Source: a virus
DNA: 64,000 nt
Direction: 5' to 3' (one strand)
IMG/VR virus record: IMGVR_UViG_3300005253_000063
Location: 54,355 to 118,354 of that record
Positions 15,603 through 64,000 of the stretch are shown here, in pieces (position 1 is the stretch's first letter; each line of letters opens with the position of its first letter). The translations under genes were made by a program, and so were the position numbers. The notes under the pieces are model-generated. The model ran no database searches, had not been told where the DNA came from, and saw only the letters and a program-made list of their open reading frames with translations.

Positions 15603-15878
15603 ATGACGAACCCACACCATCAGCGTTACCTGCGAAGAGACTGGATCGAAAGTCTCAACTTCTACTGGACTACGATGGATCTCACCGGCGTCCTTCTTGG
15701 CTGTGCCGAGCTACTCGAACTAGCCAAAAAGGTAGCCATCGAATCCAGCGGCAGCGTGGTTGTCGGCGAGACTCGTCGTTACGGAATGGACAAGTGGCGA
15801 GTGAACGACGTGCAAGCGTGGCACGACCGCGTGCGTGAGGCCGACGCGCGAGCACGGCTTGGGGAGGTAGCGACGTGA
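15603..15878 (+). CDS. Small protein ending in the DAxxRLG tail
   Basis: 91 residues, starting right after the VWA stop. The C-terminus is WHDRVREADARARLGEVAT, a clear example of the shared tail motif. The upstream part is helical with no recognised domain. The tail codons also supply GGGGAGG, the ribosome site for the next gene. Confidence 0.5.
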   Translation: MTNPHHQRYLRRDWIESLNFYWTTMDLTGVLLGCAELLELAKKVAIESSGSVVVGETRRYGMDKWRVNDVQAWHDRVREADARARLGEVAT

Positions 15879-16153
15879 TGCGACAGCACGCGCGGCTCTT
15901 GGCTACGGGCAGGGGTGAGTGGATGACCGAGACGGTGTTCATTGCTGCATGCCGTGTTCTAGTCGACGGATGGCACCTCGACCGTCGTCTCGTCATGGAC
16001 GCCGCCCACGCTGCCGAGTGCGACGGCACGCTCTCCCGCATCGCGACCAGCATCGAGTTCAACGAACCCTACTGGATCGTCAACGAACTCGACCGGTGGC
16101 TCGACACGCTCCGCGTGCTCGATGCCGCACGACGACTTGGGAGGGCGGCGTGA
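15875..16153 (+). CDS. Small protein with DAxxRLG tail, paralog of the next gene
   Basis: 92 residues, ATGA overlap with the gene before. Contains MTETVFIAACRVLV, nearly repeated in the next gene (MTEHVFVAACRELV), so the two are tandem paralogs. Ends in WLDTLRVLDAARRLGRAA. Function unknown. Confidence 0.5.
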   Translation: MMRQHARLLATGRGEWMTETVFIAACRVLVDGWHLDRRLVMDAAHAAECDGTLSRIATSIEFNEPYWIVNELDRWLDTLRVLDAARRLGRAA

Positions 16154-16476
16154 CGCGAAATCCCCACTTGGCCGAGTGTCTGTACGCGGGCGAGTACATG
16201 ACCGAGCACGTGTTCGTCGCCGCGTGCCGCGAGCTGGTTGGCGAAGTGCTCGACCACCGCAGCATCACGCGCGCTGCCTCAGCGAACCGCGTGATGTTTG
16301 AGGGCCACCCCGAGAACGTCGAGACGGTCGACTGGCGCTCTGCCCGGTGGCGTGTGCGAACGGAAGCATGGGACGCGTGGGCCGACGTATTGCGCGCACT
16401 CGATGCTGAGCAGCGCCTCGGCGAACAACCGAGGGACGCCTTTCATGGGCTCCGGTGGGATCCAGAACAAGCTTAG
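16150..16476 (+). CDS. Small protein with DAxxRLG motif, paralog of the previous gene
   Basis: 109 residues from a GTG overlapping the previous stop. Shares EYMTEHVFVAACRELV with its neighbour; the motif WADVLRALDAEQRLGEQ is followed by an extra 14 residues, so it is not strictly terminal here. Function unknown. Confidence 0.5.
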   Translation: MTRNPHLAECLYAGEYMTEHVFVAACRELVGEVLDHRSITRAASANRVMFEGHPENVETVDWRSARWRVRTEAWDAWADVLRALDAEQRLGEQPRDAFHGLRWDPEQA

Positions 16477-16486
16477 CTGCACAGAG

Positions 16487-16506
16487 CGCACGGCTTCGGC
16501 CGTGCG
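16487..16506 (+). terminator. Strong UUCG tetraloop hairpin
   Basis: Perfect 8-bp stem CGCACGGC / GCCGTGCG closed by TTCG, 10 nt after the stop at 16476 and before the next leader. Looks like the end of the MoxR-to-16476 operon, though no T tract follows. Confidence 0.5.
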
Positions 16507-16512
16507 TTCGAT

Positions 16513-16558
16513 GGAGCATTGCTCCGCGACAACCAAACAGAAACAGGAGGCTGGAACA
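16513..16558 (+). promoter_or_regulatory. Leader element: hairpin and extended Shine-Dalgarno
   Basis: GGAGC-ATT-GCTCC (16513-16525), then AACCAAACAGAAACA and GGAGGCTGG (16546-16554), ending 4 nt before ATG 16559. Matches the copies at 9887, 11897, 20536 and 26891. Confidence 0.65.
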
Positions 16559-17434
16559 ATGACGCAACAAGCACAGGCGCAAGGCACTCAACAAGTGCAG
16601 GGCATAGTCGCGGTTACCGAGAGCATGGAAACGGCTGGCTGTATAGTCTGGTGGCGGCTCAGCGGTTCGACCGACGGCTACGCGCTGCGACAGGCGTGGG
16701 AAGACGCGGGACTCCCCGAGGATCTCGTTCCCGAGCTGCCCTCGGCCGAGAAGGCGCTACGCCGCGCGGTCATCGAGCAGCGCGAACGCAGGCGCTTGGT
16801 CCGCCCGCTTGAAGGCACGAAGGGCTGGGCCGTCGTGGACGAAGCGGCGAGCGGCGACGATCTCGATTACTCGGTCAGACTCAAAGTGACCCTCAACAAG
16901 ATCGGCCACGTGAGCATCGAGCCGGAGGGTGCGGTTGGTTCCGACGAGATCAAGGCGGCGTACCAACGCCACCTCGCGCAGTTGGCGCAGACCGACATCA
17001 GCACGTGGCTGGTTCGTCTCGCCGCGCGTGTTCGCGCGGTCGCGCTTCGCGACACAGGCGGCGTATACTTCATCCCCCGCGAACAGGTTGCGCAGTGGCG
17101 ACGGATGGCCGGCGCGCTCGGCGCAGCGAGCGCGAGTCGCGTCTTCGAGGTTCCCGCGCTCAAGAGCGACGAGGCGATCGAAGCCGTGCTCGACGCCGTG
17201 GCGCGCGAGGCCGAGACTGCTGCCGAGGTGATGGAGGAGGAGCTGGCGAAGGAGAATCTCGGGGAGCGCGCGTTGCGTACGCGGACCGAGCGCTGCGGCG
17301 CGATCGAAGAGAAGCTCTCGACGTACGAGAAGCTCCTGGGCACAAGCCTCGACGCACTCCACGACCGGCTCGAAGTTCTGCAAGCCGGTCTCGCAACCGC
17401 GGCCCTCGCAGCGATGGCAGGGGACGACGACTGA
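16559..17434 (+). CDS. Phage protein of DUF6744-like type
   Basis: 291 residues. The N-terminal part (ETAGCIVWWRLSGSTDG, then WEDAGLPEDLVPELPSAEKALRRAV) resembles a family of phage and archaeal proteins of unknown function that I associate with DUF6744; this link is from memory. The C-terminal half is a long coiled coil ending DDD. Start fixed by the repeated leader. Its stop overlaps the next ATG. Confidence 0.5.
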   Translation: MTQQAQAQGTQQVQGIVAVTESMETAGCIVWWRLSGSTDGYALRQAWEDAGLPEDLVPELPSAEKALRRAVIEQRERRRLVRPLEGTKGWAVVDEAASGDDLDYSVRLKVTLNKIGHVSIEPEGAVGSDEIKAAYQRHLAQLAQTDISTWLVRLAARVRAVALRDTGGVYFIPREQVAQWRRMAGALGAASASRVFEVPALKSDEAIEAVLDAVAREAETAAEVMEEELAKENLGERALRTRTERCGAIEEKLSTYEKLLGTSLDALHDRLEVLQAGLATAALAAMAGDDD

Positions 17435-18029: not shown

Positions 18030-18462
18030 CACGAACCGACGCCTCAACATCTTCGAACGACGCGGGTGGTGCCCTGTTCGCTACGCGCATCACCCGAAGC
18101 CGATCAAGGACGCGCTGCGTAAGCTCGGCCTCCGACCACAGATAAAGCAGTGCTTCGCCAACAGCCAGCGCTTCTTCATGGGCGCGACGTGGCTCGACCT
18201 CGAATACTACGAGGGCTACATCACCACCATCATCCCGATGCCGCACGGCTGGCTTCTGTGGGAGGAGCAGCTCATCGACCTGACCCTGGACTACGGGCCG
18301 GACGAGATTGAGTATCACGGGAGCACTGTGTACACGCGGGACGAGGTACGGAAGAACATGGTTCGCACGATGCAGTGGTGCGTGATGGACGATCGCGTGT
18401 TGCACTCGCATCACCCGCGCAGCGATGAAATCGAAGCGATGCGCGCGGAGGGATCACGATGA
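18019..18462 (+). CDS. Hypothetical protein with papain/transglutaminase-like Cys-His-Asp pattern
   Basis: 147 residues. Order and spacing KQCFANSQ ... YYEGYI ... PMPHGWLLW ... LIDLTLD resemble small thiol-fold proteins in which Cys, His and Asp form a triad. This is pattern resemblance, not a firm family match. Overlaps the GNAT gene by 11 nt and the next gene by 4 nt. Confidence 0.45.
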   Translation: MPSDTNRRLNIFERRGWCPVRYAHHPKPIKDALRKLGLRPQIKQCFANSQRFFMGATWLDLEYYEGYITTIIPMPHGWLLWEEQLIDLTLDYGPDEIEYHGSTVYTRDEVRKNMVRTMQWCVMDDRVLHSHHPRSDEIEAMRAEGSR

Positions 18463-18992
18463 CCGTAACAGAGCAGACGATCCGCGCGCAGCTCCAGCAG
18501 ATCCTCGACGACTGGTACGAAGACTTCCTTGCCAAGGGAGGGGCACGCATCCGCAAGCTGCTCGACAAACAGACCGAGCAGATCGTGCTGGGTCTGCTCG
18601 GCTTCCGCGCGGAGTACAACGGCAAGTGGCAGCTCGACGTCACGAACGGTCGGAGTCACAACAGCTTCGTTGGCAAGTACCTCCACGAGAACGCCAAACG
18701 CGCGGTCGGTAAGTGGTTGGAGAAGTACCTGCACGAACCCATCGCAGTTGTGCCGAACGAGGAAGCGCTGGCGAGTGCGCGGAAGGAGTACGAGCGCACC
18801 TTCCGACGCGCCCTACTTGAAGGTGCTCAAACCAAGGCGCAAGAACATGCGACGAAGGCGCTTGAAGCCGTGGTGGGTACATCGCTACGAGAGCTTGGCC
18901 AACTCCTTGCGCCTGCGGGCGCACGAGCGCAGGACGCTCGCGACCGTCTCGTTGACGGTGACGAATGCGTAGTGGACGAGGAGGACGACTGA
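18459..18992 (+). CDS. Hypothetical protein with acidic tail and DARDRL motif
   Basis: 177 residues, helical. Near the C-terminus AQDARDRLVDGDE resembles the shared tail motif, followed by an acidic end (EEDD). Contains FRAEYNGKWQLDV and NSFVGKYLHENAKRAV in the middle. Function unknown. Confidence 0.45.
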   Translation: MTVTEQTIRAQLQQILDDWYEDFLAKGGARIRKLLDKQTEQIVLGLLGFRAEYNGKWQLDVTNGRSHNSFVGKYLHENAKRAVGKWLEKYLHEPIAVVPNEEALASARKEYERTFRRALLEGAQTKAQEHATKALEAVVGTSLRELGQLLAPAGARAQDARDRLVDGDECVVDEEDD

Positions 18993-22329: not shown

Positions 22330-22332
22330 GCC

Positions 22333-22905
22333 GTGGCAGACCCGGACGACCTTGACGAGTTCGACGACATCGCGCGGGTGGCTGCGCGCGTTGCGCGGAA
22401 GTACAAACGCACCTATTGGTGGAGCGAGGAGGAGGACCTGCGTCAGGAGGCGTGGGCCGCACTGCTCAAGGCAGTCCACCATTGGGATCCGCGCGTGGGT
22501 GCTCCCCTCGAAGCGTATCTTTGGCGCGCTGCGAACTACGCGCTGCGACCGTTCGTGTGGAAGAACGCCTCGATCGCAAGCGCGTCCTATCGACAGCTCG
22601 CCGAGCTGTTCAAGCACCACCGCGCGCAGCTCAACGAATCGATCGTGGACCCCGCGCCGTCGGCAGACGAGGTCATCGAGGAGGCGCGTTGGCGGCGCGC
22701 GATCCGCAAGGAGCTTGCGCGCATCTTCGCGAGCGACAAAGATGGTAGTCTCGCGGAGGCCGTGCTCATGGCGGGGTACAAACCGTTGCAGGTTGCTCAC
22801 GTCTTGGATGTCCCGGTACAACGTGTCTACAGCGCGAGCGCACAGATACGCCGACGCATCGAATCCGACTACACCCTCTTCAAGCTCTGGAGGAACAACA
22901 CGTGA
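22333..22905 (+). CDS. RNA polymerase sigma-factor-like protein
   Basis: 190 residues, GTG start. Residues about 30-75 match sigma region 2 in character: SEEEDLRQEAWAALLKAV, then WDPRVGAPLEAYLWRAANY. The C-terminal 60 residues could be a region-4 helix-turn-helix (LQVAHVLDVPVQRVYSASAQ). Such a factor could direct host RNA polymerase to phage promoters. Short and divergent, so DNA-binding without promoter activity cannot be excluded. Confidence 0.6.
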   Translation: MADPDDLDEFDDIARVAARVARKYKRTYWWSEEEDLRQEAWAALLKAVHHWDPRVGAPLEAYLWRAANYALRPFVWKNASIASASYRQLAELFKHHRAQLNESIVDPAPSADEVIEEARWRRAIRKELARIFASDKDGSLAEAVLMAGYKPLQVAHVLDVPVQRVYSASAQIRRRIESDYTLFKLWRNNT

Positions 22906-23597: not shown

Positions 23598-23843
23598 ATG
23601 ACTCGACGCTCGAAGCAAGCAGAGTTTCTACGAACGAAAGGCTACGTCCGCGCGACCAAGGCCGCGCAACTCGTCCGAGTATCACCGTCCGCCATCTACC
23701 GGATGCTGGAGCAGGAGACGCTCGACGGCACGAAGATCGGGGGCCGGTGGTACGTCACGCTCAAGTCGCTCATCGAATACTGTGGCTCGGCTGCGAAGGA
23801 GTTCGGTCTGCTGGAGCTGCAGCGGAAGGCGCGGGCCCGGTAG
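23598..23843 (+). CDS. Excisionase/MerR-like helix-turn-helix protein
   Basis: 81 residues, GGAGAGGAGA upstream of ATG. GYVRATKAAQLVRVSPSAIY followed by a wing (KIGGRWYVTLKSL) is the winged HTH of the Xis/MerR-like helix_turn_helix_17 type. No integrase is in the window, so a regulatory role is more likely than excision. Confidence 0.65.
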   Translation: MTRRSKQAEFLRTKGYVRATKAAQLVRVSPSAIYRMLEQETLDGTKIGGRWYVTLKSLIEYCGSAAKEFGLLELQRKARAR

Positions 23844-24187: not shown

Positions 24188-25575
24188 TGTGGCTGGAAGC
24201 TAATAACTTGCACGCGCGGGTCGTGCGCGCAACGCGAGAAGACCGGCGTTGGTTGCACGGCTACCTCTCGTTCGAAGATACGAGCGCGCACTACCGCAAG
24301 GGTGGGGGTGGCGGACGGACGTCGCTTTACAACCTCATCGCTGACTCGTTCCCCGCGGGACTCATCTCGCTCGTCATCCGCGGTGCAAAGGCCGAGGGCA
24401 TGCAGGTGCAGATCATTGACAAGCGTACGTGCCCCGCGCCACGCGATCCCAACGCGGACCTGGCCTGGCTACGCGACTACCAGGAGGACGCAGTCGAAGC
24501 TAGCGCTCGCAGGACGCGTGGCATTCTCTGGATGCCGACCGGCTCGGGCAAAGGGGAAATAGTGCTCGGCCTTGTGCGCGCGATGCCCTGCAACTGGCTG
24601 TTCGTGGTCCACCGCTCCGGGTTGATGTATGACATCGCGGACCGATACGAAAAACGGAACTCACTCGAAGCAGCTGGCCGCATCGGCGATGGGAAGTGGG
24701 AGTCTGCGGACCCGAGCGGCGCGAGCGGAGCCTCTCTCACGTGTGCGACGTTTCAGACTTTGAGTAAGGCATACGGCACCCCGCAGTTCGCACAGCTCGC
24801 GAACTCTGCCCAGGGCCTCATCGTTGACGAAGCGCACTGTTTGCCAGCCGCGTCGTTTTGGCGCGTCGCGATGCAGATGCGGAACGCGTACTACCGGATC
24901 GCGATGAGCGGCACACCGCTCGCGCGCGGTGACAGGAAGAGCCTGTACACGGTCGCCGCAATGGGCTCGGTCATCTATCGCATCAAGCCGGACGTGTTGA
25001 TCGCTGCAGGCGTGCTCGCGAAGCCGCGCATCAAGTTGGTGCCCTGCTTCCAAACGAGCGACCGGCCCACGTGGCAGGGCGTGTACGGCGAGTGCATCGT
25101 ACGATCGAAGCGCCGCAACCGGCTTGTTACCGAAGCCGCGAAGCGTGCGAAGGCGCCGATGCTCATCTTCGTCAAGGAGATCAAGCACGGCAAGCTGCTC
25201 CGCACGATGCTCGAAGACGCGAACATCCAGACCGACTTCGTCTGGGGTTCGGACTCGCAGCGGTCCCGCGAGCGTTCGGTCGAACGACTGGAGCGCGGCG
25301 ACATCGATGCGATCGTTTGCTCGGTCGTCTTCCAGGAGGGCATCGACATCCCTTCGCTGGAGTCGGTCGTTGTTGCCAGCGGTGGGCAGAGTGTCATCGC
25401 TACGCTGCAACGCATCGGTCGCGGGATGCGAACCGACCAAGGACGTAAGACGACGTTTGAAGTATGGGACCTCGACGACCGTGGGCAGAAGTGGTTGGAG
25501 AAGCACAGCCGCGCTCGGTCTCGCGCGTACCGTTCGGAAGGCTACGAAGTCGTAGTCGAATCGGTGGCCGCGTGA
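24187..25575 (+). CDS. SF2 DNA/RNA helicase, UvsW-like
   Basis: 462 residues, GTG start overlapping the upstream stop. Walker A PTGSGKG (about 117), VDEAH box (about 214), motif III MSGTP, and the C-terminal helicase motifs GIDIPSLESVVVASGGQS and QRIGRGMRT. An N-terminal extension of about 85 residues precedes the helicase core, as in UvsW. UvsW-type enzymes reverse replication forks and branch-migrate recombination intermediates, fitting the RecA/UvsY/SbcCD set here. Confidence 0.75.
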   Translation: MWLEANNLHARVVRATREDRRWLHGYLSFEDTSAHYRKGGGGGRTSLYNLIADSFPAGLISLVIRGAKAEGMQVQIIDKRTCPAPRDPNADLAWLRDYQEDAVEASARRTRGILWMPTGSGKGEIVLGLVRAMPCNWLFVVHRSGLMYDIADRYEKRNSLEAAGRIGDGKWESADPSGASGASLTCATFQTLSKAYGTPQFAQLANSAQGLIVDEAHCLPAASFWRVAMQMRNAYYRIAMSGTPLARGDRKSLYTVAAMGSVIYRIKPDVLIAAGVLAKPRIKLVPCFQTSDRPTWQGVYGECIVRSKRRNRLVTEAAKRAKAPMLIFVKEIKHGKLLRTMLEDANIQTDFVWGSDSQRSRERSVERLERGDIDAIVCSVVFQEGIDIPSLESVVVASGGQSVIATLQRIGRGMRTDQGRKTTFEVWDLDDRGQKWLEKHSRARSRAYRSEGYEVVVESVAA

Positions 25576-25820
25576 TCGAAGTTCCCGCGCGCATCGTCTG
25601 CGACACCGAGGGTTGTGACGCGAGCGAGGACATCGTTCTTCGCAGCAAGGCCGGATCGAATTACCTCGCGGTTCGGAAGGGAATCTGGGACGAGGGGATG
25701 ACGTTGCCACCCGAGTGGGCGGCTATCTGGTCGAAGAGCGAGAACTGCGAGTACATCCAATGCCCGACGTGTGCGAAGACGTATGACGCGCGCAAGCGTT
25801 TGGAAAAGACAACGGCATAG
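25572..25820 (+). CDS. Small zinc-binding protein
   Basis: 82 residues, GTG start overlapping the helicase stop. VCDTEGCDASED and IQCPTCAKTYDARKRLEK give two CxxC-type pairs. Last gene before the terminator at 25824. Function unknown. Confidence 0.5.
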   Translation: MIEVPARIVCDTEGCDASEDIVLRSKAGSNYLAVRKGIWDEGMTLPPEWAAIWSKSENCEYIQCPTCAKTYDARKRLEKTTA

Positions 25821-29076: not shown

Positions 29077-29106
29077 GCTGCCAGCCTTTCGTTGAGTTTG
29101 TGGGTT

Positions 29107-29150
29107 CTTTCCCATACCTATATAGTGCCCTAGCTATATATCGTCTGCAA
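29107..29150 (-). promoter_or_regulatory. AT-rich promoter/operator of the AAA+/VWA operon
   Basis: Local AT-rich stretch with the inverted repeat TATATAG (29119-29125) and CTATATA (29134-29140) 30-65 nt upstream of the ATG at 29076. TTGCAG and TATATA in the minus direction are promoter-like. The symmetry suggests a dimeric repressor site. Confidence 0.5.
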
Positions 29151-29298
29151 TACCCTATTTTCCCTGGCAACTCCGGCGGTTACAACACGCCCATACGCGC
29201 GGGACGCGTGTGAGCGGGCGTACGAGGGGTCTGCTGGGGCCGTGTCGCGGGGTCCCGACGGGGTGCGGAATGCGCGCGAGCGCGCCCAAGTCACAGAC
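29151..29298. other. Intergenic region between divergent operons
   Basis: About 150 nt without a supported gene; GC-rich with short repeats such as GGGGTCC also found at 21040-21130. Probably upstream of the small plus-strand genes at 29299. No clear promoter. Confidence 0.3.
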
Positions 29299-29373
29299 AT
29301 GGCAACGAAGGTGGAGATAGTCGAACGGTGGCGTGCAGCCGATGCGAAGCGGCGCCTCGGAGACGTTGCGTGA
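29299..29373 (+). CDS. 24-residue micro-protein made almost entirely of the DAxxRLG motif
   Basis: ATG 29299 to TGA 29373. The product is MATKVEIVERW followed by RAADAKRRLGDVA, i.e. the shared tail motif as a free peptide. The stop overlaps the next GTG (GTGA), and the motif codons hold GGAGA, a ribosome site for it. No other frame explains this stretch. Short length lowers certainty. Confidence 0.5.
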   Translation: MATKVEIVERWRAADAKRRLGDVA

Positions 29374-29642
29374 GCGACGAGCCCCTGCGGTCGCGTCTCG
29401 CACTCGGACAGTACGTCGCTTTACATGAGATACACGACTGGCTCGTGAAGGAAGGGTTCGACTTGGCGACAATGGGTGAGCTGTTGAATCGGTTGAGAGA
29501 ACGCGGGATCGTAGAGGCTCATACCTACCCTGGTCTCACTCACTACCCGGACTGGCGCTTGGCCGTGCCTATCGCCTTTGCGATCCACCATGCGACCATC
29601 GTCGACGCGGAGCTACGACTCGAACATTGGAGCGGCGAATGA
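29370..29642 (+). CDS. Small winged-helix-like protein with DAELRLE end
   Basis: 90 residues, GTG start overlapping the micro-ORF. Helical with an HTH-like middle (LHEIHDWLVKEGFDLATMGE). The C-terminus TIVDAELRLEHWSGE resembles the shared tail. Ends overlapping the next ATG. Confidence 0.45.
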   Translation: MSDEPLRSRLALGQYVALHEIHDWLVKEGFDLATMGELLNRLRERGIVEAHTYPGLTHYPDWRLAVPIAFAIHHATIVDAELRLEHWSGE

Positions 29643-29878
29643 TCAAAGGCTTCAGACTCGTCCGGCACTTCGATCCGGACTTCACGCCATGCGGTTGCGT
29701 GACGCATCTGTTCTACACGGTAGACTGCGGCGAGGTCTACGAGAAGCGCTTGACGGTGCGCGTTCACAGCAACGTGTACCTCTGCATCTTCGCGCGCGTC
29801 TGCGCGGCGTGCGGCGCTGCTTGGTCTTCCGAAGCCGAGATGTTCCGATCCGAGGTGGAGCAGAGACTCGTCAACTAG
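29639..29878 (+). CDS. Hypothetical cysteine-containing protein
   Basis: 79 residues, ATGA overlap. Cys in CGCVTH, VDCGEV, YLCIFARVCAACGAAW suggests a zinc site. Convergent with the minus-strand gene ending at 29875 (4-nt overlap). Function unknown. Confidence 0.4.
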   Translation: MIKGFRLVRHFDPDFTPCGCVTHLFYTVDCGEVYEKRLTVRVHSNVYLCIFARVCAACGAAWSSEAEMFRSEVEQRLVN

Positions 29879-30382: not shown

Positions 30383-30407
30383 CGAGTCAGCCGGACCTGG
30401 CAAACAA

Positions 30408-53308: not shown

Positions 53309-54157
53309 TTAGTTCAAGCAAGCGCGGGCTTCGCTCCGCAACCAGCTCGGATCTACATCGTTCGGGTCCAAGCATGGCGGGAGCCGTACGTTCCCTGCTC
53401 GCGTACCCGCGAATCGAAGTTGCTGTGCGAGGGCCCAGCCCTCTTCCCACGCGTCACCGTCGAGCGCCATGACGACTGGTCGACGCGCCGACGCGAGCGC
53501 GACCATTTGTAGCTGCGTAGGTTTGCCCAGACACGCAACCGCGTCCGGCCAATACGGCAGTGCATCGAAGACGCCCTCGACAACGAGGATGGGATCGTCG
53601 GACTCCTTCAGGATTGCCGCGTGGTTGAACAGAATCGTCCGCTTCATTCCTTTCGGGTACAGGTAGGGCTGCTCACACTTCACCCACGCGCGGCTGACCC
53701 AGCCAACCCACGCATCGCCGTCGACCGATGCTACGGGAACTACGATGCGGTCACTGTAGAACCCACTCGGGCAGAAGCCAATGCCGACCTCGGCGATCGT
53801 TGTCCGTGTCACGCTACGCCGCGCAAGGTACTGGTGTGCTGGCCGGGCGATGAGCGCGCTCGCGGCTGGCTCTTCCGCGAGGGGTAGGAAGCTCCCGGGC
53901 GGTTCGATGACAGCGTCCGGCTCATCGGTCTCCTTCGGCTCGCGCCAGTGCGTGTCGGGGACTTCGCGCAGCCGGCCGACGATGCCGCATCTGAAACAGT
54001 GAAAAACGCCGTTCGCGGCGCGCACGCCGAACGCTCCGTGCTTGTCGGCGGTACCGACACGGTCCTCACAGAACGGACACTCGCCCCGCCACCAGCCGGA
54101 TGTCCCGAGCCGTGCTTCGCTGAGTGCGGTCAGAACCAGTTTGTCTTCTTCGGTCAT
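53309..54157 (-). CDS. DnaG-type primase
   Basis: 282 residues. Zinc finger CPFCEDRVG ... FHCFRCG at the N-terminus; TOPRIM catalytic part IVVEGVFDALPYW then VVMALDGDAWEEG. Makes RNA primers for DnaB-driven synthesis. Shorter than cellular DnaG; no separate helicase-binding domain. Overlaps the small gene upstream. Confidence 0.8.
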   Translation of the reverse strand: MTEEDKLVLTALSEARLGTSGWWRGECPFCEDRVGTADKHGAFGVRAANGVFHCFRCGIVGRLREVPDTHWREPKETDEPDAVIEPPGSFLPLAEEPAASALIARPAHQYLARRSVTRTTIAEVGIGFCPSGFYSDRIVVPVASVDGDAWVGWVSRAWVKCEQPYLYPKGMKRTILFNHAAILKESDDPILVVEGVFDALPYWPDAVACLGKPTQLQMVALASARRPVVMALDGDAWEEGWALAQQLRFAGTRAGNVRLPPCLDPNDVDPSWLRSEARACLN

Positions 54158-54411
54158 TCGGCGTGTGTTGCTTCGAGTCGATGGCGCGCATCACCGGCGA
54201 GCATGTCTTCGTGCTTCAGTCTCGCGATGAACTCGCGACCGTACTTCGTGATCGGTAGAATCCAACCCGCGTCCGCGCGCTTGAGGAAACCGACGATACG
54301 CCCCTCGGCAACCCAGCGCTCGATCTCCCATGTCTCGCACTGCCACGCGACCGCAGCGTCTTCGATGCCACCCCACTTCATGTCATTGTACTTCGGAGGG
54401 ACGTACGTCAT
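54154..54411 (-). CDS. Small protein with GDARHRLE tail
   Basis: 85 residues. N-terminal helix-turn-helix-like part (VAWQCETWEIERWVAEGRIVG) and C-terminus DMLAGDARHRLEATHAE, one of the shared-tail proteins, but sitting in the replication operon between DnaB and primase. Confidence 0.5.
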   Translation of the reverse strand: MTYVPPKYNDMKWGGIEDAAVAWQCETWEIERWVAEGRIVGFLKRADAGWILPITKYGREFIARLKHEDMLAGDARHRLEATHAE

Positions 54412-54423: not shown

Positions 54424-56751
54424 TCAGTAGCCCGTCGTGCGCTGAACCGGTGAGATTCGACCGCGTTCGAACTCAGTGGGCAGCGGTCCCACGATCACAC
54501 GGGACCGCCCGGTCCTGTGCTTCGCGATGTAGTATTCGAGAAGGTCCGTGTCTTCACCCTTGACGTTCAGGGTAATGACTAGGTCGGCAATGCGGACTTT
54601 GTGCATCGAGTCGGCAACATGGTTGAGATCAGTTCGCTTCGACCCCTTCTGCTGTCGCGATGCTTGTGATGCGGTCCAGTTGAAGCAATTGCGATCGACC
54701 CCGAGCTGGCGCAGCTCCTCGTAAACAACGCGCATCGCTTGGTACTCTGACTTCTCTGTCGGTGCGCTCAGGCGGTCCGCGTAGTCGACGATGAGGACGT
54801 CGATGCCGCTACCGATTGTGTCCTCGCAACGCGTCACCCACTCACCTAGGTCGGCGACGGTCGTCGTGTGGGGGGTGAACTCCTGGACGTACCCGATGCC
54901 GAGCCGTGTCTCTAGCTCCGCGATACGCGACTTCGCTTGTTCCATCGAGCCATCGAGGATCGCGTTGATGGGTAGCCCGGTCAGGTTCGCTTTGAAACGC
55001 GCGAGCACTTCCGCCTCGGGCAGCTCTAGCGTCGCGTAGAGGACGCTCATCCCTTCAAGCAGCGCGTTGGCCGCGATATGCGAGAGCATCATCGAGTTGT
55101 GTGTAACCGTGAAGTCGTCGAGCAGGTAGCGGCTGTCTCTGTCGAGCGAGAAGCCGTAGTAGTCTCCCTCCCCCACGGGTTCGACGACGAAACCAGTCAC
55201 GTGGTGATCTTTTTTCTGTCGGCGCTCGGACGGTCGCTTGCGTTCTAACCGGAGCGGTAGCAGGTCCAAACCATCTCCCCAGATCCCCACACGGTAGTAA
55301 GTACCGACCGCGCCGGTGTTCGTACAACACTTCTCTACTTCCGCAATGGATGCCGCAAAGCCCAAACTACGAGAGACGAAGGCGACGTCACCCGCGAGCT
55401 GACGCGACTTCGAGGTGAACTCCATACCCGACTTATTGGTGTTGCCGTCTGTGTCTAACAGCCCGGCGAGCAGAGCAGCCCGTGCTGCGACGGATCCCAC
55501 CTTGTAAATCTGTGGAATGAACTTCGTACCACTCTTCGTTCCCCACAGTCCCAATCCACGAACGATCTCCCGCACAGGATTCTTCCGCCCGCGCTGGCCG
55601 ACCAGCTCGTACGAGGGTGCGCGATCGTGTTCGTAGACCTTGAGACGCAGGTCGAAACGCCGACACTCGAACTCGACCATGTCGCGAATTTCAGAATCGG
55701 CCGAGGTGATACGGAGGTCGTTCTGAAGCGAACCGTCGCCGAGAAGGACTCCGAGGAAATAGGGGTCAAGTGGTAGACGAACCCTACTCACTCCTTCGAA
55801 TTCCTCAACACCAATATGGAAGAGTTTGAAGAGGTGCTTACGTTGTCGTGACCAAGCGGACCAATTGCGCAACGATACGTCGACAACCTCACCCGCGTAC
55901 CGACCCGACCCCGTGAGGGTCAGCACGTGGTCGGCGTTGACGCGCCAGGGGGTGCCGCCACGCAGCGGGACGACGTCGAACAGTTCACCGTGGCCTCGGT
56001 TCGTTCGTAGAACGTTTCGCACCTTCCCATCGGGACCTATCAAACGGTCCCCTACGCACACGTCCTCGACCTTCCTGATCGTACCATCGGACATCAGGAT
56101 GCCCTGGCCTTTAGCGTGACATTTTCCGTCACCTGCCGCGCCGACGACGACGCCCAAAGCGGCACGCGCATGTCCACCACTCAGCATCGCGTCCAGCTCG
56201 GGTACGCCCGTCGGCAGCCGCTTGATATGCCGCAGCCGTTCGATCTCCCCGAAGGAAGCTGTACCAATGCGGATGCCCTCCGACGTGTCGACGATGCCGA
56301 CGCGCTGCGCCTTCGCGAGCGTCTCGACGACGCGGTCGAAGTCCCCGCGCTTCTGGTACTCGTTGATCGCGAGCGTTACCACGTCGGCTTGCGCGCGACG
56401 TTTGAGCAACGGGGCAACCTCATCCGCGGTCTCGTCCGTCGGTGGCAGGCCGACGTCGTCCGCGTCGTCGAGCAGACCGCCGACGGCGCGGAGCTGTTCG
56501 ATCGTGACCTTGCCCTCCTCCATCCAACGGCGGAGCCGTTGAATAACAAGCACGCTAGAGCTAGGCCCGCGCCCGAGGTCGCGTCCGATCGCCTGCGCTG
56601 CTTCGAGCGCGAGCTTCGCGATCGGGTTCATGATCATCTTCGGGTCGAGCGCGCGGCCGATGCGTCCGAAGAAACGCGGCCGGCTGCAGCTGAGCGCAAT
56701 GACTGCACGCTCGAACGCCGGGTCGAACCCGTAGGTCTCCTGACCTGCCAC
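54424..56751 (-). CDS. dnaB: DnaB-type replicative helicase interrupted by an intein
   Basis: 775 residues, GTG start: N-extein 1-210, intein 211-552, C-extein 553-775, giving 433 after splicing. The P-loop GAAGDGK/SMMLSH is split. ELPEAEVLARF, LIVDYADRLS (Walker B) and SQASRQQKGSKRTDLNHVAD fit DnaB. Unwinds DNA with the primase downstream. Confidence 0.85.
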   Translation of the reverse strand: MAGQETYGFDPAFERAVIALSCSRPRFFGRIGRALDPKMIMNPIAKLALEAAQAIGRDLGRGPSSSVLVIQRLRRWMEEGKVTIEQLRAVGGLLDDADDVGLPPTDETADEVAPLLKRRAQADVVTLAINEYQKRGDFDRVVETLAKAQRVGIVDTSEGIRIGTASFGEIERLRHIKRLPTGVPELDAMLSGGHARAALGVVVGAAGDGKCHAKGQGILMSDGTIRKVEDVCVGDRLIGPDGKVRNVLRTNRGHGELFDVVPLRGGTPWRVNADHVLTLTGSGRYAGEVVDVSLRNWSAWSRQRKHLFKLFHIGVEEFEGVSRVRLPLDPYFLGVLLGDGSLQNDLRITSADSEIRDMVEFECRRFDLRLKVYEHDRAPSYELVGQRGRKNPVREIVRGLGLWGTKSGTKFIPQIYKVGSVAARAALLAGLLDTDGNTNKSGMEFTSKSRQLAGDVAFVSRSLGFAASIAEVEKCCTNTGAVGTYYRVGIWGDGLDLLPLRLERKRPSERRQKKDHHVTGFVVEPVGEGDYYGFSLDRDSRYLLDDFTVTHNSMMLSHIAANALLEGMSVLYATLELPEAEVLARFKANLTGLPINAILDGSMEQAKSRIAELETRLGIGYVQEFTPHTTTVADLGEWVTRCEDTIGSGIDVLIVDYADRLSAPTEKSEYQAMRVVYEELRQLGVDRNCFNWTASQASRQQKGSKRTDLNHVADSMHKVRIADLVITLNVKGEDTDLLEYYIAKHRTGRSRVIVGPLPTEFERGRISPVQRTTGY
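55096..56121 (-). mobile_element. Intein with LAGLIDADG domain in dnaB
   Basis: 342 residues from Cys (CHAKGQGILMSDGT) to TVTHN before Ser+1. Block B VNADHVLTL; endonuclease motifs FLGVLLGDGSL and LLAGLLDTDGN. Class 1 type, in contrast to the recA intein. Confidence 0.85.
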
Positions 56752-58840: not shown

Positions 58841-59125
58841 TCAATAGACTTGTGCGTCTGCTCCTATTTCGGCGAGCTGTGAACAACTTTCTTCCCACGC
58901 TTCGAGGCCGCTGAGCCGGCGCTGCGCATCGAGCGCGCGGGTTGCATCATCGAAGTCGGGTACGAGGATTTCCCACTCGCCTTTCCAGGTCGGGCGGGAC
59001 TCCTTCCCGAGTATGCCCGCGGCGATAAGCTCTCGGATTGAAACCCAGATGTCGAGTTTATGTAGCTTGGCCCACACTTCCTCGGTGGTCAGGTCTGTTG
59101 CAAGTTTTTTCATACGCTTGGGCAT
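58841..59125 (-). CDS. Small HTH-like protein with DAQRRLSG motif
   Basis: 94 residues from ATG 59125. Helical, with IWVSIRELIAAGILGKESRP resembling an HTH followed by a small wing. Near the C-terminus FDDATRALDAQRRLSGLEAW, the shared motif followed by a further helix. The -35 of the replication promoter overlaps its stop. Confidence 0.5.
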   Translation of the reverse strand: MPKRMKKLATDLTTEEVWAKLHKLDIWVSIRELIAAGILGKESRPTWKGEWEILVPDFDDATRALDAQRRLSGLEAWEESCSQLAEIGADAQVY

Positions 59126-59174
59126 CGGTTTTGTAGTGCGCTTTACGACGCGTCGAGCGTTCGGTTCGTAGCGT

Positions 59175-59453
59175 TCAACCGGCTCCGCTGAGGCGCATGA
59201 TTGCGTCGGCCTCTGTCTCGGTGACGAGTTCGAGGTACCCGCCTTCCCAGTCGCGGTAGGCGTCGAGCAAGTTACTGCTCCAGATCGACACCGCGACCGC
59301 GAGCGTGTTTCGGAGTAGGTACTCGTTGCAGCCGTCGCAGTGGAGCATCTCATCGCGCACGAGCCCGAACGCGAATTTGATTTGCTCATGGCGGCCGGGT
59401 CGCGTCTCGGCCCACTTGCGCCAACAGCGTTGGCAGTTGATCTCGCGCTTCAT
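59175..59453 (-). CDS. Small zinc-binding protein with EADAIMRLSG tail
   Basis: 92 residues, ATGA overlap with the gene before. CQRCWRKWAET and MLHCDGCNEYLL form a possible zinc site; C-terminus TETEADAIMRLSGAG fits the shared tail. Function unknown. Confidence 0.5.
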   Translation of the reverse strand: MKREINCQRCWRKWAETRPGRHEQIKFAFGLVRDEMLHCDGCNEYLLRNTLAVAVSIWSSNLLDAYRDWEGGYLELVTETEADAIMRLSGAG

Positions 59454-59707
59454 ACGTTCGCTAGCCGGAGCCGTGCGTCGGTCGCGAGCAGTGTCTCTTC
59501 CCACGCTTCGAGGTCGAGGACTCGCCACGTGCTCGCGTCTGCGCGGTCGACAATGCCCACCGCGTACGCTGCGTGTAGCAGATTGTTGAAGGACGCCGTG
59601 TCGATGCGAACGCACCCGAGTCGTTCGAACGCGTCGGCGTGTAGCACCGCGAACGCGTTCCACGCGCTGAGCGGGCGGTGCCGAATCGTCTCGCCGTCAT
59701 GGGTCAT
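59450..59707 (-). CDS. Small protein with ATDARLRLANV tail
   Basis: 85 residues. Helical; C-terminus LEAWEETLLATDARLRLANV is a strong example of the tail with Trp 8 residues before the Asp. Function unknown. Stop overlaps the next ATG. Confidence 0.5.
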   Translation of the reverse strand: MTHDGETIRHRPLSAWNAFAVLHADAFERLGCVRIDTASFNNLLHAAYAVGIVDRADASTWRVLDLEAWEETLLATDARLRLANV

Positions 59708-59824
59708 GGCTCGCGTTGCGTTCTTGGTTGTCGCACTGTGGGCGGCTCGCGTTACTTCTTTGGGCGTCGTGAATCGTGCGGCTACCCCGCGCGGGGACTG
59801 CCCGAGAAGAAGCTCTGCGGCGAA
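59708..59824. other. 117-nt gap
   Basis: No frame on either strand looks coding here and no repeat or hairpin stands out; likely a spacer between small operons. Confidence 0.3.
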
Positions 59825-60154
59825 CTATCCTCGCCCGTGGCCATTGGCCATTGGCATCTTCTCAGTCGCTTCCGTCGTGAGGCGCCGTTGTGCGTCTTCG
59901 AGTTTCGCGCGTCGTCTTGCGTACGGGCTCAGGCCCAACGCGACTGCGTGCATCCAGAAGACGCATGGCCAGAAGACGACAGCGGCAACGTAGCCATGCC
60001 ACTGGAATTGCTTCTGGTCGATGTCATCTTTCCAGCTGCGCTCGCGCGCTTCCGCTCTCTCCCTTGCGACTCGAATGCCGTGCCGAGTTGAGTGAACCAT
60101 CGCCGACACTGCAATGCCGATGCCGTAGATCCAGCCGTACCATTCCAGTTCCAT
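59825..60154 (-). CDS. Small membrane protein with EDAQRRL motif
   Basis: 109 residues, GAAGGAGGAGA before ATG 60154. Two hydrophobic stretches (about 5-20 and 54-73), then KLEDAQRRLTTEA near the C-terminus. Function unknown. Confidence 0.5.
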   Translation of the reverse strand: MELEWYGWIYGIGIAVSAMVHSTRHGIRVARERAEARERSWKDDIDQKQFQWHGYVAAVVFWPCVFWMHAVALGLSPYARRRAKLEDAQRRLTTEATEKMPMANGHGRG

Positions 60155-60168
60155 CGTCTCCTCCTTCC

Positions 60169-60423
60169 CTACGATTTGGGCGGTGCGGCTAGTTTTCGCA
60201 ACGCGATGGCGAGTAGGCACGAGCGGCAGATGCGCACGTCCCAGTTCCAGTACGTGATCTCGTTGAAGCTGAAGCCGCACAGCGAACGGTGTTGGTAGAA
60301 CTCCAGCATCTGTGTCGTGCAGGCGACCACGTGGAGCGTGCCGGAGTGCGCGAGCTTCCAGCCTTCGAGTGCGCCGCTGAGCCGCCAGCGCGCCTCGACC
60401 GCTTGTGCGTCTGCTTCGATCAC
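60169..60423 (-). CDS. Small protein with N-terminal EARWRLSG motif
   Basis: 84 residues, GTG start overlapping the previous stop. The motif (EADAQAVEARWRLSGALEGW) is at the N-terminus here. The C-terminal half has Cys and Trp residues (NWDVRICRSCLLAIAL). Function unknown. Confidence 0.45.
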   Translation of the reverse strand: MIEADAQAVEARWRLSGALEGWKLAHSGTLHVVACTTQMLEFYQHRSLCGFSFNEITYWNWDVRICRSCLLAIALRKLAAPPKS

Positions 60424-60806
60424 TGTTCCTCACCAAGCCGTTGTCGTGCGTCCGCTGCCTGGAGCGACTCGCGTGCTTCCATCATCGCGGGGGCGAAGCC
60501 TATCAGACGCACCCGCGCATCGGCAGCCTTGAGTGTCTCGATCATCTCGTTCCAACCACCGACGAGGATGGGGTAGCGTGCAGCGTCATGTCGGACGAGG
60601 CCGAGCGCGTCGAGCATCAGCTTGACCGCGAACTCGGGGTCGATGTAAAGGTTTGTATCCTGTTCGATACCCATCTCGGTCGCGATGATTCCTAGCACCC
60701 GGGACCACGTGGATGTCGGACGTCGTAGCTTTTTAGTGAATGCTCGCACGTACTCCTTTGCTCTGTACTCCTCCCGCTGACGGAGCTTACTCACCCGCTG
60801 CCTCAT
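60420..60806 (-). CDS. Small protein with two copies of the DAxxRL motif
   Basis: 128 residues. Two motif copies close together: ETLKAADARVRLIG and ESLQAADARQRLGEEQ, the second at the C-terminus. N-terminal basic helix and WSRVLGIIATEMGIEQD. Overlaps the NrdR-like gene upstream by 20 nt. Confidence 0.5.
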   Translation of the reverse strand: MRQRVSKLRQREEYRAKEYVRAFTKKLRRPTSTWSRVLGIIATEMGIEQDTNLYIDPEFAVKLMLDALGLVRHDAARYPILVGGWNEMIETLKAADARVRLIGFAPAMMEARESLQAADARQRLGEEQ

Positions 60807-61068
60807 CTAGGATTCCGCTTGGCAGCCCATGCGAGACCTCGGCCCACAGTGTCCGCGGCTTGACGAGCGTGAAGTGGGACATCACCAGCTTGCAATCTCG
60901 GCCTCGCTTGAGAGTGATCGCACAGTCCACGCCGACCTCGACTTCATACGTCGTGAACCGATGGCGGCAATTCATACACGTCCGTCGGCGCCGGACCGCG
61001 AGCCCATGCTGATTCTCGGTTCGTGAATCCACGACCCGCGTCTCGCTGAAGCAGCGCGGACATTCCAT
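60787..61068 (-). CDS. NrdR-like zinc-ribbon protein
   Basis: 93 residues, GAGGAGG before ATG 61068. MECPRCFSETRVVDSRT ... RRRRTCMNCRHRFTTYE is the zinc ribbon of NrdR, the repressor of ribonucleotide reductase genes; the ATP-cone that follows in NrdR is absent. May be a stand-alone DNA- or RNA-binding ribbon. Confidence 0.6.
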   Translation of the reverse strand: MECPRCFSETRVVDSRTENQHGLAVRRRRTCMNCRHRFTTYEVEVGVDCAITLKRGRDCKLVMSHFTLVKPRTLWAEVSHGLPSGILDEAAGE

Positions 61069-61082
61069 TGGAGCCTCCTCAG

Positions 61083-61547
61083 TTACAGTAGTTGCGTGCG
61101 TTCGCGGTACTCGCGCTCGATGCGATACGCCTGTCGCTCGAACCAGATGTTCTTGTAGGCGACGACGGCGCCTTGCCCGCGCACGAGGTTGATCATGAAG
61201 CTCAGTCCATAGAGTAGTGGGTACAGTACGCCGCCGAGGACCATGCACTGCGCGACATGCACGCGCTCGTGGTGGCGTAGCGACTCGCGGTCCCGTTGGT
61301 GCTCGTCGCGGTAGAAGATAATGATGCCGTGCGTCTGCGCGCCCGTGCGGAAGTCCTCCGGGTCGTCGATGTCTCCGTCGCCCGTGCGGTCGAAGCCCTC
61401 GGGGATCACGTGCCAGCACACGACCACGTCGAGCGCGCCGTCCGACCAGCGGATCGACTTGGGGAAGTAGACCGTGAGCAAGCACAGCACGCCGAACAGC
61501 GTGTGCGGCAACGACCAGATCCAACCGAGTGCCTTGAGGATGATCAT
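61083..61547 (-). CDS. Membrane protein with HExxH-like motif
   Basis: 154 residues. N-terminal hydrophobic segment (about 5-27), then FYRDEHQRDRESLRHHERVHVAQC and a second hydrophobic segment (GGVLYPLLYGLSFMINL). HERVH resembles membrane-bound zinc peptidases but the third ligand is not clear. Function uncertain. Confidence 0.45.
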   Translation of the reverse strand: MIILKALGWIWSLPHTLFGVLCLLTVYFPKSIRWSDGALDVVVCWHVIPEGFDRTGDGDIDDPEDFRTGAQTHGIIIFYRDEHQRDRESLRHHERVHVAQCMVLGGVLYPLLYGLSFMINLVRGQGAVVAYKNIWFERQAYRIEREYRERTQLL

Positions 61548-61556
61548 GGCGACAGC

Positions 61557-61760
61557 TTACCCCAATCGATCCCGTGCATCGGCTGCCCGCAGTTCGTCTA
61601 TGATCGTGCTGCGCGATCTACCGACGAGGTGTGGGAGGTCGTGTTCGTCCCACCATAGAGAGCCGCTGTTCCACAGGTAGCTGTACGTGCGTTCCCAACT
61701 GATGCCCGCTTCCCTTGCCACCTGTTCTACCAGCGCACGTGCTCGGATCCCTTTGCTCAC
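61557..61760 (-). CDS. Small HTH-like protein with AADARDRLG tail
   Basis: 67 residues, GTG in a GTGA overlap. VEQVAREAGISWERTYSYLW is HTH-like; ends IIDELRAADARDRLG, the shared tail at the extreme C-terminus. Confidence 0.55.
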   Translation of the reverse strand: MSKGIRARALVEQVAREAGISWERTYSYLWNSGSLWWDEHDLPHLVGRSRSTIIDELRAADARDRLG

Positions 61761-62149
61761 TTCGGTTCGCCGAGCCGCTCGCGCGCATCCTCCGCCGTGC
61801 GCTTCTCGTGGCACTCGCGTGCGAACTTTGCGAGTGCGGCGACATCACGAAGCACCGGGTAGTAAAGCGTCTCGTTTCCGAACTGCACACCGATTCGAAG
61901 GGTGAGACCGTTCCTGCTGAACACGTTCGGAGCGCACCAGTATGTTTCGAGTCCGTGCTTGCGTGCGTCCTCGTTGATCAACTCGTTGAGCATCTGCCAC
62001 GTGACGGGATAGCCGCCGGCGATGCGTTCGTGCCAGTCGTTGGGACCGGGCGGCAAGGTAGGCAGGCTGGCCGTGCGACGTAGTCGGCGCTCCTCTTTGT
62101 ACTGAGCCTGCTCCGCCATCTTGTAGCCATCGGAGATGCCGTCACTCAC
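61757..62149 (-). CDS. Small protein with EDARERLG tail
   Basis: 130 residues from a GTG overlapping the TSCPD gene end. Mixed alpha/beta, WCAPNVFSRNGLTLRIGVQF; ends EKRTAEDARERLGEPK. Function unknown. Confidence 0.5.
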   Translation of the reverse strand: MSDGISDGYKMAEQAQYKEERRLRRTASLPTLPPGPNDWHERIAGGYPVTWQMLNELINEDARKHGLETYWCAPNVFSRNGLTLRIGVQFGNETLYYPVLRDVAALAKFARECHEKRTAEDARERLGEPK

Positions 62150-62630
62150 CGGACTCCTCCGGGTCGTCAGCCGGTGCTTCCAGTTGCTTCGGCTCGTCGG
62201 GCTCTTCCGGTTTGTTGGTTTGTAGGAAGCGGTGGTCCAGGAAACGTGCGACGTAGTCGAGCGGGCTGACACAGTAGTGGATGTCGCCCGGAGCGTTCTG
62301 AACCCTGCCGGCAGGTTGGAACCGCGCGCCGCGGAACTTCTCTATGATCTTCGAGAGAGGCGTTCCGCTCTGCAATAACATGCTCGCCGCGATTGACCAC
62401 GCATCGCAGAACCCGCTGACCCCGCTACCCTGTCGGTCGAGCTTGAGGAACACCTCGCCGATGCGGCCGTCTTCGAACCAGTTGGCGGTGAGGTAGCCCT
62501 TCACGGTTCCGACCAGCTCAACGAAGCCGTGACCACACTTCGGGCAGACATGCGACCGAGACTCGGTCGACAGGATCTTGAAAGCGTGTGTGATGCCTTG
62601 CCGTTCGGACGGCATGTATTCTCTCGTCAC
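62142..62630 (-). CDS. TSCPD-domain protein
   Basis: 162 residues, GTG start. VCPKCGHGFVELVGTVKG, then IGEVFLKLDRQGSGVSGFCDAW, SGTPLSKIIEKFRGARFQP fit the TSCPD domain found at the C-terminus of B12-dependent ribonucleotide reductase and as single proteins. No reductase is in the window; a link to the NrdR-like ribbon nearby is possible. Confidence 0.6.
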   Translation of the reverse strand: MTREYMPSERQGITHAFKILSTESRSHVCPKCGHGFVELVGTVKGYLTANWFEDGRIGEVFLKLDRQGSGVSGFCDAWSIAASMLLQSGTPLSKIIEKFRGARFQPAGRVQNAPGDIHYCVSPLDYVARFLDHRFLQTNKPEEPDEPKQLEAPADDPEESGE

Positions 62631-62669
62631 TCATTCACCTCCGAGTCGTCACTCATTCACCTCCGAGTC
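62626..62669. repeat. Tandem 22-bp repeat
   Basis: GTCACTCATTCACCTCCGAG plus TC, twice in tandem (62626-62647, 62648-62669). On the minus strand it covers the end of the gene at 62653 and duplicates its ribosome-binding sequence GGAGGTGAATG in front of the TSCPD gene. Confidence 0.8.
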
Positions 62670-62883
62670 GTCGCTCCGCGTCGAGCGCGCGGGCTTGATC
62701 CATCAACTCCGCCCATCCGTATGGCAGCACGAGGATACCGTTCGCGAGTCGGCCAAGGACGCCTGCCGTGATGAGCCGTTCCTTGTACCAGACCCACCAA
62801 TAACCGGGGCCGACGTTCACCTCGCACAGAACGTACGCCGAGACGAGTGAGTCGTTGAACATGGTGCCACGCGGGTACTTCAC
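62653..62883 (-). CDS. Small protein with LDAERRLGG tail
   Basis: 76 residues, GTG start overlapping the previous stop. Helical with GPGYWWVWYKERLITAGVL; C-terminus WAELMDQARALDAERRLGGE. The tail codons give the ribosome site for the next gene. Confidence 0.55.
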   Translation of the reverse strand: MKYPRGTMFNDSLVSAYVLCEVNVGPGYWWVWYKERLITAGVLGRLANGILVLPYGWAELMDQARALDAERRLGGE

Positions 62884-63173
62884 TTCCTCACTTGACTTGG
62901 TCGCGGTTGTTGGATTTCGTGCGGGAACAGCTCGCGTTCGTTGCTACTGAGGCGGCGGATCGCATCGTCGATTAGCAGCTCGCGTCGCTTGCGGATTTTC
63001 AACAGCGCAACCACGACGAGTGCGCCAGCCCACGTAACCATGAGTCCGTTCCACAACATCGCACCGTCGTCTTCGAAGTGTCCGATGGTGAAGGTCACGA
63101 GGCAATACGCCCACAACACGACCTGCGTCCATTGATTGTTTAGCGCATCCCGGATCCGACATAGCCACTTCAT
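62880..63173 (-). CDS. Membrane protein with DDAIRRLSS motif
   Basis: 97 residues, ATGA overlap. Two membrane segments (about 18-33 and 42-58), then KRRELLIDDAIRRLSSNERE and a Gln/Pro-rich end. The motif is internal. Function unknown. Confidence 0.5.
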   Translation of the reverse strand: MKWLCRIRDALNNQWTQVVLWAYCLVTFTIGHFEDDGAMLWNGLMVTWAGALVVVALLKIRKRRELLIDDAIRRLSSNERELFPHEIQQPRPSQVRK

Positions 63174-63442
63174 GCAGGCCACAGATTCTTCGCCGCCTTG
63201 GTCGCCGCGACGAGCCCGCCCAGGCGGTACGCCGCGCGCACGGCTGTGTCAGTGACAGGGACAAGGTCGTCTTCAGCGTCGTGTTCGCCGCAGAACGGTT
63301 TGTGTTTCCCGCCGCGCGGGAACACGTGCACCTCGTCGGGAAAGAGGATCCGTCGGCAGTGCGGGCACCAACACAGATGCAGCTCCGGGTCCGGGTGAAG
63401 GAATCGGTAATCGCCTGGGTGGTTCCACAGGTCGTCGGTCAC
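63170..63442 (-). CDS. Zinc-ribbon protein
   Basis: 90 residues, GTG start overlapping the previous stop. LCWCPHCRRILFPDE and PFCGEHD make a zinc site; ends YRLGGLVAATKAA with only a weak RLG resemblance. Function unknown. Confidence 0.5.
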   Translation of the reverse strand: MTDDLWNHPGDYRFLHPDPELHLCWCPHCRRILFPDEVHVFPRGGKHKPFCGEHDAEDDLVPVTDTAVRAAYRLGGLVAATKAAKNLWPA

Positions 63443-63708
63443 TTCACGCGCTCCAGTCGCTCTCGCGCGTCGACCGCCTGCAGTCGACGCTTGAACTCAT
63501 CGAGGGACACGCTCAACCGGTAGCCCTCGAACTCTTCACCTTCGACGTCGTATAGCTGCGTCTCGATCGCGTCGTGGCAGTCGTCGTCCGTGCCGACCGC
63601 GATCGTGACTACCTTGAAGGAGATCCCGGTCGCGTTCGCGAGCCGTTTGAAAAGCTCGCCCCACTTCAACCAATCGGTGTCGTGCCAGTTGTCGCCGAGC
63701 CTGGTCAT
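63439..63708 (-). CDS. Small protein with VDARERLERVK tail
   Basis: 89 residues, ATG overlapping the stop of the next-edge gene. Compact alpha/beta (FKVVTIAVGTDDDCHD), ends FKRRLQAVDARERLERVK. Function unknown. Confidence 0.5.
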   Translation of the reverse strand: MTRLGDNWHDTDWLKWGELFKRLANATGISFKVVTIAVGTDDDCHDAIETQLYDVEGEEFEGYRLSVSLDEFKRRLQAVDARERLERVK

Positions 63709-64000
63709 CCGTCGAGCCTCAGCTCCGCGTCCCACGCCTTGCCGCACGTGATGCTGCAGAAGTAGCGCAAGCCGCACAGCGTCTCGAACGAGGTAAACGC
63801 TTCGTAGTTGACCTCCTCGTCGCACTCCGGGCAGAGATAGTATTTGTTGCGCGCCCAGCGGTTCAAGCATTGCTTTGAGCAGAACGCGATCGGTTGTGTA
63901 GGGTGACCTTGGATCGGCAAGACGAACCAGTGGGGCTCGTCCGGGATCAATTCGGCACAGTATTCGCACCACTCAACGGATTCTATGCGGGTGCGCGTGC
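63705..64000 (-). CDS. Two-finger zinc protein with WDAELRLDG end (5' partial)
   Basis: The frame is open from the right edge. CEYCAELIPDE ... FCSKQC and LCPECDEEVN ... FCSITC give two treble-clef-like fingers; ends GKAWDAELRLDG, the shared tail. A TTG at 63950 would give 81 residues but would cut the first finger, so the gene starts outside the window. Confidence 0.55.
   Translation of the reverse strand, partial: TRTRIESVEWCEYCAELIPDEPHWFVLPIQGHPTQPIAFCSKQCLNRWARNKYYLCPECDEEVNYEAFTSFETLCGLRYFCSITCGKAWDAELRLDG

Follow-up and report, generated by a model that had tools for sequence, protein, structure and literature searches.

A short C-terminal motif shared by mostly unrelated small proteins of a tailed phage: a possible docking helix

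Why should small proteins with different bodies, encoded in a single viral genome, carry nearly the same short ending? This question is raised by a stretch of 64,000 nucleotides (hereafter the window; G000:C1:54355-118354), which is part of the 118,354-bp IMG/VR virus record IMGVR_UViG_3300005253_000063 (G000), the remainder of which is designated L002-L004. A preliminary description of the window had proposed that about twenty otherwise unrelated small proteins share a helix-like tail. We found the motif DAxxRL at most about 30 residues from the C-terminus in 19 open reading frames (ORFs) of the window (Table 1) and in 8 further ORFs of L002, and the results presented below show that this tail is real, modular and selected as protein. 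No description of it was found in a literature search.

The motif was strongly concentrated at C-termini. When the last 24 residues of the 125 small proteins of G000 were searched for [DE][AS]xxRL, 23 of them matched, versus 0.62 in composition-matched shuffled sequences. Among 454 internal windows only 10 had the same pattern (Fisher P 1e-9), and it was absent from all 39 large proteins. A de novo search for C-terminal motifs, which used no prior pattern, ranked DxxxRL first (24 occurrences, 1.3 expected) with a score of 47, the null maxima being 8.8 for shuffles and 10.5 for internal segments. Among approximately 1,025 non-gene ORFs just 4 matches were detected, a fifth one corresponding to the real gene at 61557. 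The hidden Markov model (HMM) that had been suggested as a check was built from 23 tails and gave 28 matches across the 118-kb record. Most of the copies listed previously were recovered, with the exception of those at 43766 and 48929, which had no motif, and at 60169 (LLAIALRKLAA), which had no Asp; the copies at 25572 and in L002 had been missed.

Alignment of 27 tails gave a consensus of roughly [D/E]-x-L-x-A-x-D-A-x-x-R-L-G, about 13 residues long. Numbered from the Asp, the recurrent positions were A at -2 (20/27), D/E at -6 (15/27), L at -4 (11/27) and R at -3 (9/27), and a G came after RL in 10/27 tails, followed or not by other residues, the whole stretch after RL having 1-23 residues and no fixed sequence. 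An aromatic residue 8 positions before the Asp, which had been pointed out earlier, was common (9/27 tails, 2.0 expected) but is not a general feature. In the invariant codons of these tails the nucleotide identity was 0.93 at positions 1 and 2; at position 3 it fell to 0.38, little above the 0.34 of the variable codons, and codon use did not depart significantly from that of the genome (chi-square p 0.05 to 0.35). Since third positions differed nearly to the extent expected of unrelated codons and codon use was genome-like, selection acts on the protein and not on a DNA repeat, as had been proposed.

The tail genes were not evenly distributed. The first 100 bases of the record were found again at window position 63880 and therefore the record is probably complete, with its ends joined; a run of small minus-strand genes crosses these ends, and the strict motif was present in 18 of its 36 genes versus 9 of the 92 other small genes. 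A trio (15603, 15878 and 16150) was placed between the vWA and DUF6744 genes described below, and the remaining tail genes outside the run were single. A NrdR-like zinc ribbon protein without tail is also encoded within the run (60787-61068).

When the tails were removed from 29 tail proteins, the bodies showed one clear paralogous pair (15878/16150), in agreement with the earlier statement that the bodies are largely unrelated. Zinc-finger-like bodies, in which the tail comes directly after CxxC, were seen in 25572, 63705, L002 1380 and L002 17047; two carriers (59825 and 62880) were predicted membrane proteins, the tails of which should face the cytoplasm according to the positive-inside rule, and the other bodies had no recognisable domain. 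In a scan of 68 tail proteins against Pfam and PHROG no family matched more than one member, and two orphan bodies searched in IMG/VR had no homologues there. The best structure model, that of the protein at 49209 of the related phage G061 (three sequences; predicted local distance difference test, pLDDT, 73), has a beta-rich domain at residues ~1-110, the greater part of which reaches pLDDT 80-90; a low-confidence linker connects it to a separate helix (124-150) holding the tail, the pLDDT of the tail helix being about 50-65. In the poor model of 15878 (pLDDT 52) the tail is located in the last helix, which is preceded by other helices and two short strands. Together these models weakly favour a helical appendage. 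Fold searches with both models matched no solved structure, the G061 49209 body being similar to several uncharacterised viral proteins, and comparison of the tail with solved structures gave one chance-level match (E 1.3).

The tail was also found in other phages among 30 related contigs. It was frequent in two distant relatives, G084 (15/99 small proteins, P 1e-7) and G061 (10/105, P 5e-4), a few copies were present in each of G102, G001, G029, G049, G074 and G088, and none was detected among the small proteins of G063, G076, G078, G079, G086 and others. Several columns outside the search pattern recurred both in G000 and in eight relatives taken together, namely D/E at -6, L at -4, A at -2 and a G 1-2 residues after RL. 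Where homologues exist the motif was kept in diverged orthologues: G061 49209, G084 16420 and G088 13852, with 32-40% identity to the first one, all have the tail (ESVDRLQG, EATRRLQG and DAVKRLGG), which was likewise kept in G084 15606 and G049 80885. The Arg was lost in the pair member belonging to a phage without RL tails (G061 68045, DDAARRLRG, versus G086 56352, EETSLALKG). The more distant phage G065 has an ending of its own, AxxxLxxS, in 20 small proteins versus 1.9 expected (score 29 versus 10.6).

Other endings and matches were seen in this survey. A paralogous small-protein family (EGxxWxRGW...ALxAxxAL) with its own C-terminal ending occurs in G065, G075 and G086 (L117-L123, L239-L243 and L228-L233), and in six small proteins of G002 (27474-32362, L130) the C-terminus consists of a zinc-ribbon-like TCxxC knuckle and, after it, a short stretch resembling a helix, which may be an ending akin to that of the CxxC-plus-tail carriers of the window's phage. 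G077, with 6 motif matches, was set aside because three of them were one paralogous family. A DNA-pattern scan of IMG/VR for tails gave 62 matches, mostly not at C-termini, the useful ones being G049 and G029.

Of the earlier proposal, the motif, its C-terminal placement, the largely unrelated bodies, selection on the protein and presence in homologues are supported, whereas the common binding or targeting peptide is a candidate role; the tails of the relatives and the other form of ending in G065 extend the picture. The reading that we hold, with divided confidence, is that of a modular docking helix at the C-terminus, with one common cytosolic partner. The helix, borne by many mostly unrelated small accessory proteins, would bind a single partner in the cytosol, either phage-encoded or a host hub, and docking would gather a fast-changing set of small proteins at one place or machine, with helix and partner changing together. 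We infer the binding, the single cytosolic partner and the co-evolution of both; that helix and partner change together is probable because the ending takes a separate form in G065, a more distant phage. A broader version, which we regard as distinctly unlikely, is a phage-wide docking code, in which the large and changing set of small accessory proteins of each phage in the group would bear a phage-specific version of one C-terminal helix. A phage hub evolving together with the helix, perhaps the MoxR-vWA-DUF6744 machine, would read it, and new accessory genes would join the infection programme by acquiring a tail.

Several observations weigh against a docking helix. No tail partner was found by gene co-occurrence among the compared phages, the closest syntenic relative (G001) has 4 tail copies only, and some small genes within the end-crossing run bear no tail. 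About one third of the AxxxLxxS proteins of G065 are one paralogous body family. The conserved positions were not significantly clustered on one helix face (permutation 0.15 and 0.18), the amphipathic moment of the tails was not raised in the window's phage, and both structure models, particularly in the tail helix, have the low pLDDT values given above. Finally, the genes, those of the 30 related contigs included, were called with a simple script and not with a standard caller.

The main alternative, which is possible but on the unlikely side, is that the tail is a structural C-terminal helix of a fast-diverging superfamily of small proteins, kept by descent and used for folding or self-dimerisation, with no common partner. 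Marginal body similarities in a few pairs (15603/59450 and 1147/2493) agree with this, as do the low-confidence model of 15878, in which the tail forms part of the final helix, and the many tails that, by eye, come after a beta-strand plus helix or after a CxxC knuckle. However, most bodies showed no similarity even at sensitive settings, and zinc-finger-like, membrane and beta-rich types are found among them. If the helix served folding, there would be no need for one and the same D-A-R-L in proteins that fold differently, and in the best model the helix lies outside the body.

It is quite improbable that the tail is a stability or degradation signal for a host protease or adaptor, an analogue that had been put forward on first inspection. 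Its place near the C-terminus of small, probably early proteins would suit such a signal; nevertheless, to our knowledge C-degrons require a defined C-terminal end, and here RL is followed by 1-23 variable residues with no defined residues found at the very C-terminus, one protein (60420) has two copies, and two tails are on membrane proteins. Still less probable is that the tail sends small proteins into the capsid for injection: the capsid targeting sequence of T4 is a short terminal peptide common to small internal proteins (PMC9026906) and the phage has an S78-type protease gene, but the tail is at the opposite end from the T4 sequence, two carriers are membrane proteins, and the tail genes adjoin replication genes and are distant from the head genes. 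That a DNA or RNA element (the ribosome site of the next gene or a recombination site) dictates the coding sequence of the tail is scarcely credible in view of the divergent third positions and genome-like codon use, even if several tails overlap the following start codon and GGxGA can come after RL.

If the docking reading holds, which protein might be the partner? A MoxR-like ATPase, a DUF2201 vWA protein, a DUF6744 protein, a sigma-70-like protein, an HTH_17 protein and replication genes were common to 7/7 tail-bearing phages. Of the several candidates, one is the MoxR-vWA-DUF6744 module. The idea that its presence suffices to predict tails was rejected, since G063, G076, G078 and G079 have the module without detectable tail. 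Co-occurrence singles out no partner, because the ATPase, vWA and DUF6744 genes are also present in phages without tails and served to find most of the genomes. The sigma-like and HTH proteins were the candidates most restricted to tail-bearing phages, a restriction that may be only a clade effect. The module itself (11934-17434) is conserved in many uncultured phages, DUF6744 being present in 16 compared genomes, and a literature search gave no paper naming DUF6744. In a genome scan with the AAA alignment most matches were actinobacterial proteins, a result that is not sufficient to assign a host.

Table 1. Tail-bearing genes, candidate partners and interrupted genes (window coordinates unless L002 or L003 is given)
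Feature	Coordinates	Strand	Remarks
MoxR-like AAA ATPase	11934..13169	+	candidate hub component
DUF2201 metallopeptidase/vWA protein	13974..15602	+	candidate hub component
91-aa protein	15603..15878	+	tail ...AWHDRVREADARARLGEVAT, motif from 15843
91-aa protein	15878..16153	+	tail ...WLDTLRVLDAARRLGRAA, motif from 16121; body possibly winged-helix-like (low-confidence model)
108-aa paralogue of 15878	16150..16476	+	tail LRALDAEQRLGE, 17 residues from end; last of trio
DUF6744 protein	16559..17434	+	candidate hub component
177-aa protein	18459..18992	+	weaker case; AQDARDRL ~18 residues from end
Sigma70 region-2 protein	22333..22905	+	other candidate partner; in all seven tail-bearing phages
HTH_17 protein	23598..23843	+	other candidate partner; in all seven tail-bearing phages
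82-aa Cys-rich protein	25572..25820	+	CPTCAKTYDARKRLEKTTA
43-aa protein	29242..29373	+	VERWRAADAKRRLGDVA
90-aa protein	29370..29642	+	HHATIVDAELRLEHWSGE
85-aa protein	54154..54411	-	MLAGDARHRLEATHAE
94-aa protein	58841..59125	-	TRALDAQRRLSG, ~24 residues from end
92-aa Cys-rich protein	59175..59453	-	TETEADAIMRLSGAG
85-aa protein	59450..59707	-	LEAWEETLLATDARLRLANV
109-aa protein, predicted membrane segment	59825..60154	-	KLEDAQRRL, likely cytosolic side
124-aa protein, two tail copies	60420..60794	-	KAADARVRL and QAADARQRLGEEQ
85-aa protein	61557..61814	-	C-terminal end LRAADARDRLG
130-aa protein	61757..62149	-	KRTAEDARERLGEPK
76-aa protein	62653..62883	-	MDQARALDAERRLGGE
97-aa predicted membrane protein	62880..63173	-	LLIDDAIRRLSSN
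89-aa protein	63439..63708	-	FKRRLQAVDARERLERVK
81-aa zinc-finger-like protein	63705..63950	-	CSITCGKAWDAELRLDG
Small-gene run crossing record ends	58841..64000 into L002 125-6124	-	36 genes, 18 with strict motif
Intein-like interrupted genes	37269-38840, 45503-47551, 49197-52766, 54424-56751; L003 1219-4119		split alignments with G001; LAGLIDADG domain in portal

The record corresponds to a tailed phage, in which genes for an HK97-type capsid, a portal and a minor tail protein were recognised. It has no close cultured relatives, its capsid protein sharing no more than about 40% identity with its counterparts in Vibrio and Stenotrophomonas phages. Insertions resembling inteins seem to interrupt the FolE-like, RecA, DNA polymerase, DnaB-like helicase and portal genes, long inserts being placed between conserved halves. 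Judged from the sequence, a cluster of QueC-, QueD-, QueE- and FolE-like genes (33100-38840) suggests 7-deazaguanine DNA modification, and an IS605/TnpB-like gene (40481-41683) appears to lie between SbcC-like and SbcD-like genes. In L003 (6009-10400) a 1463-aa gene comprises a C-terminal XkdF-type head protease fused to a D12 adenine methyltransferase domain.

Phage accessory proteins with no assigned function form one of the largest sets of genes that still await explanation. A common tail would allow many of them to be grouped by a feature that they have in common, serve as bait for the partner and let new carriers be spotted by sequence despite bodies without homologues. Should the form of the tail be specific to each phage, a comparison of these forms with the conserved phage proteins might indicate the receptor.

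The tail resembles known shared terminal tags as a kind, yet it fits none of them by the features tested. The capsid targeting sequence of T4 internal proteins, a short terminal peptide by which several small phage proteins are directed to a single place, is N-terminal, comprising the first 10 residues and forming part of a cleaved propeptide (PMC9026906). Like it, the tail is a short terminal peptide common to several small phage proteins, but all tails are at or near the C-terminus and are borne by many more proteins, including membrane proteins. Encapsulation peptides of microcompartment cargo are short terminal helices on unrelated proteins that bind one partner surface, namely shell proteins of metabolic organelles (PMC11157265). 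The tail is likewise a short terminal element on mostly unrelated proteins, possibly a helix, but its sequence differs, and no shell protein was recognised among those phage proteins, some of the total, that were scanned against Pfam. The effector-associated domains (EADs) of MoxR-vWA ternary systems are small adaptor elements on different effectors; they belong to cellular conflict systems, are folded domains and are proposed to work through homotypic contacts (PMC7159879). Here also a small element is common to different proteins in genomes with MoxR and vWA proteins; in contrast to EADs it has about 13 residues and belongs to a phage, and the comparison of genomes brought out no link to the MoxR-vWA genes. 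A copy on a core component (MoxR, vWA or third protein), of the kind seen with EADs, was not found, the tail HMM giving no match at record positions 66288-71788 (the AAA, vWA and DUF6744 genes) except in the inserted trio. The C-terminal tail of SSB, which had also been suggested as an analogue, is a terminal peptide acting as an interaction hub; it is acidic and ends at the last residue, which makes a tail of this type unlikely here, and it belongs to one protein that binds many, whereas in the phage many proteins may bind one partner.

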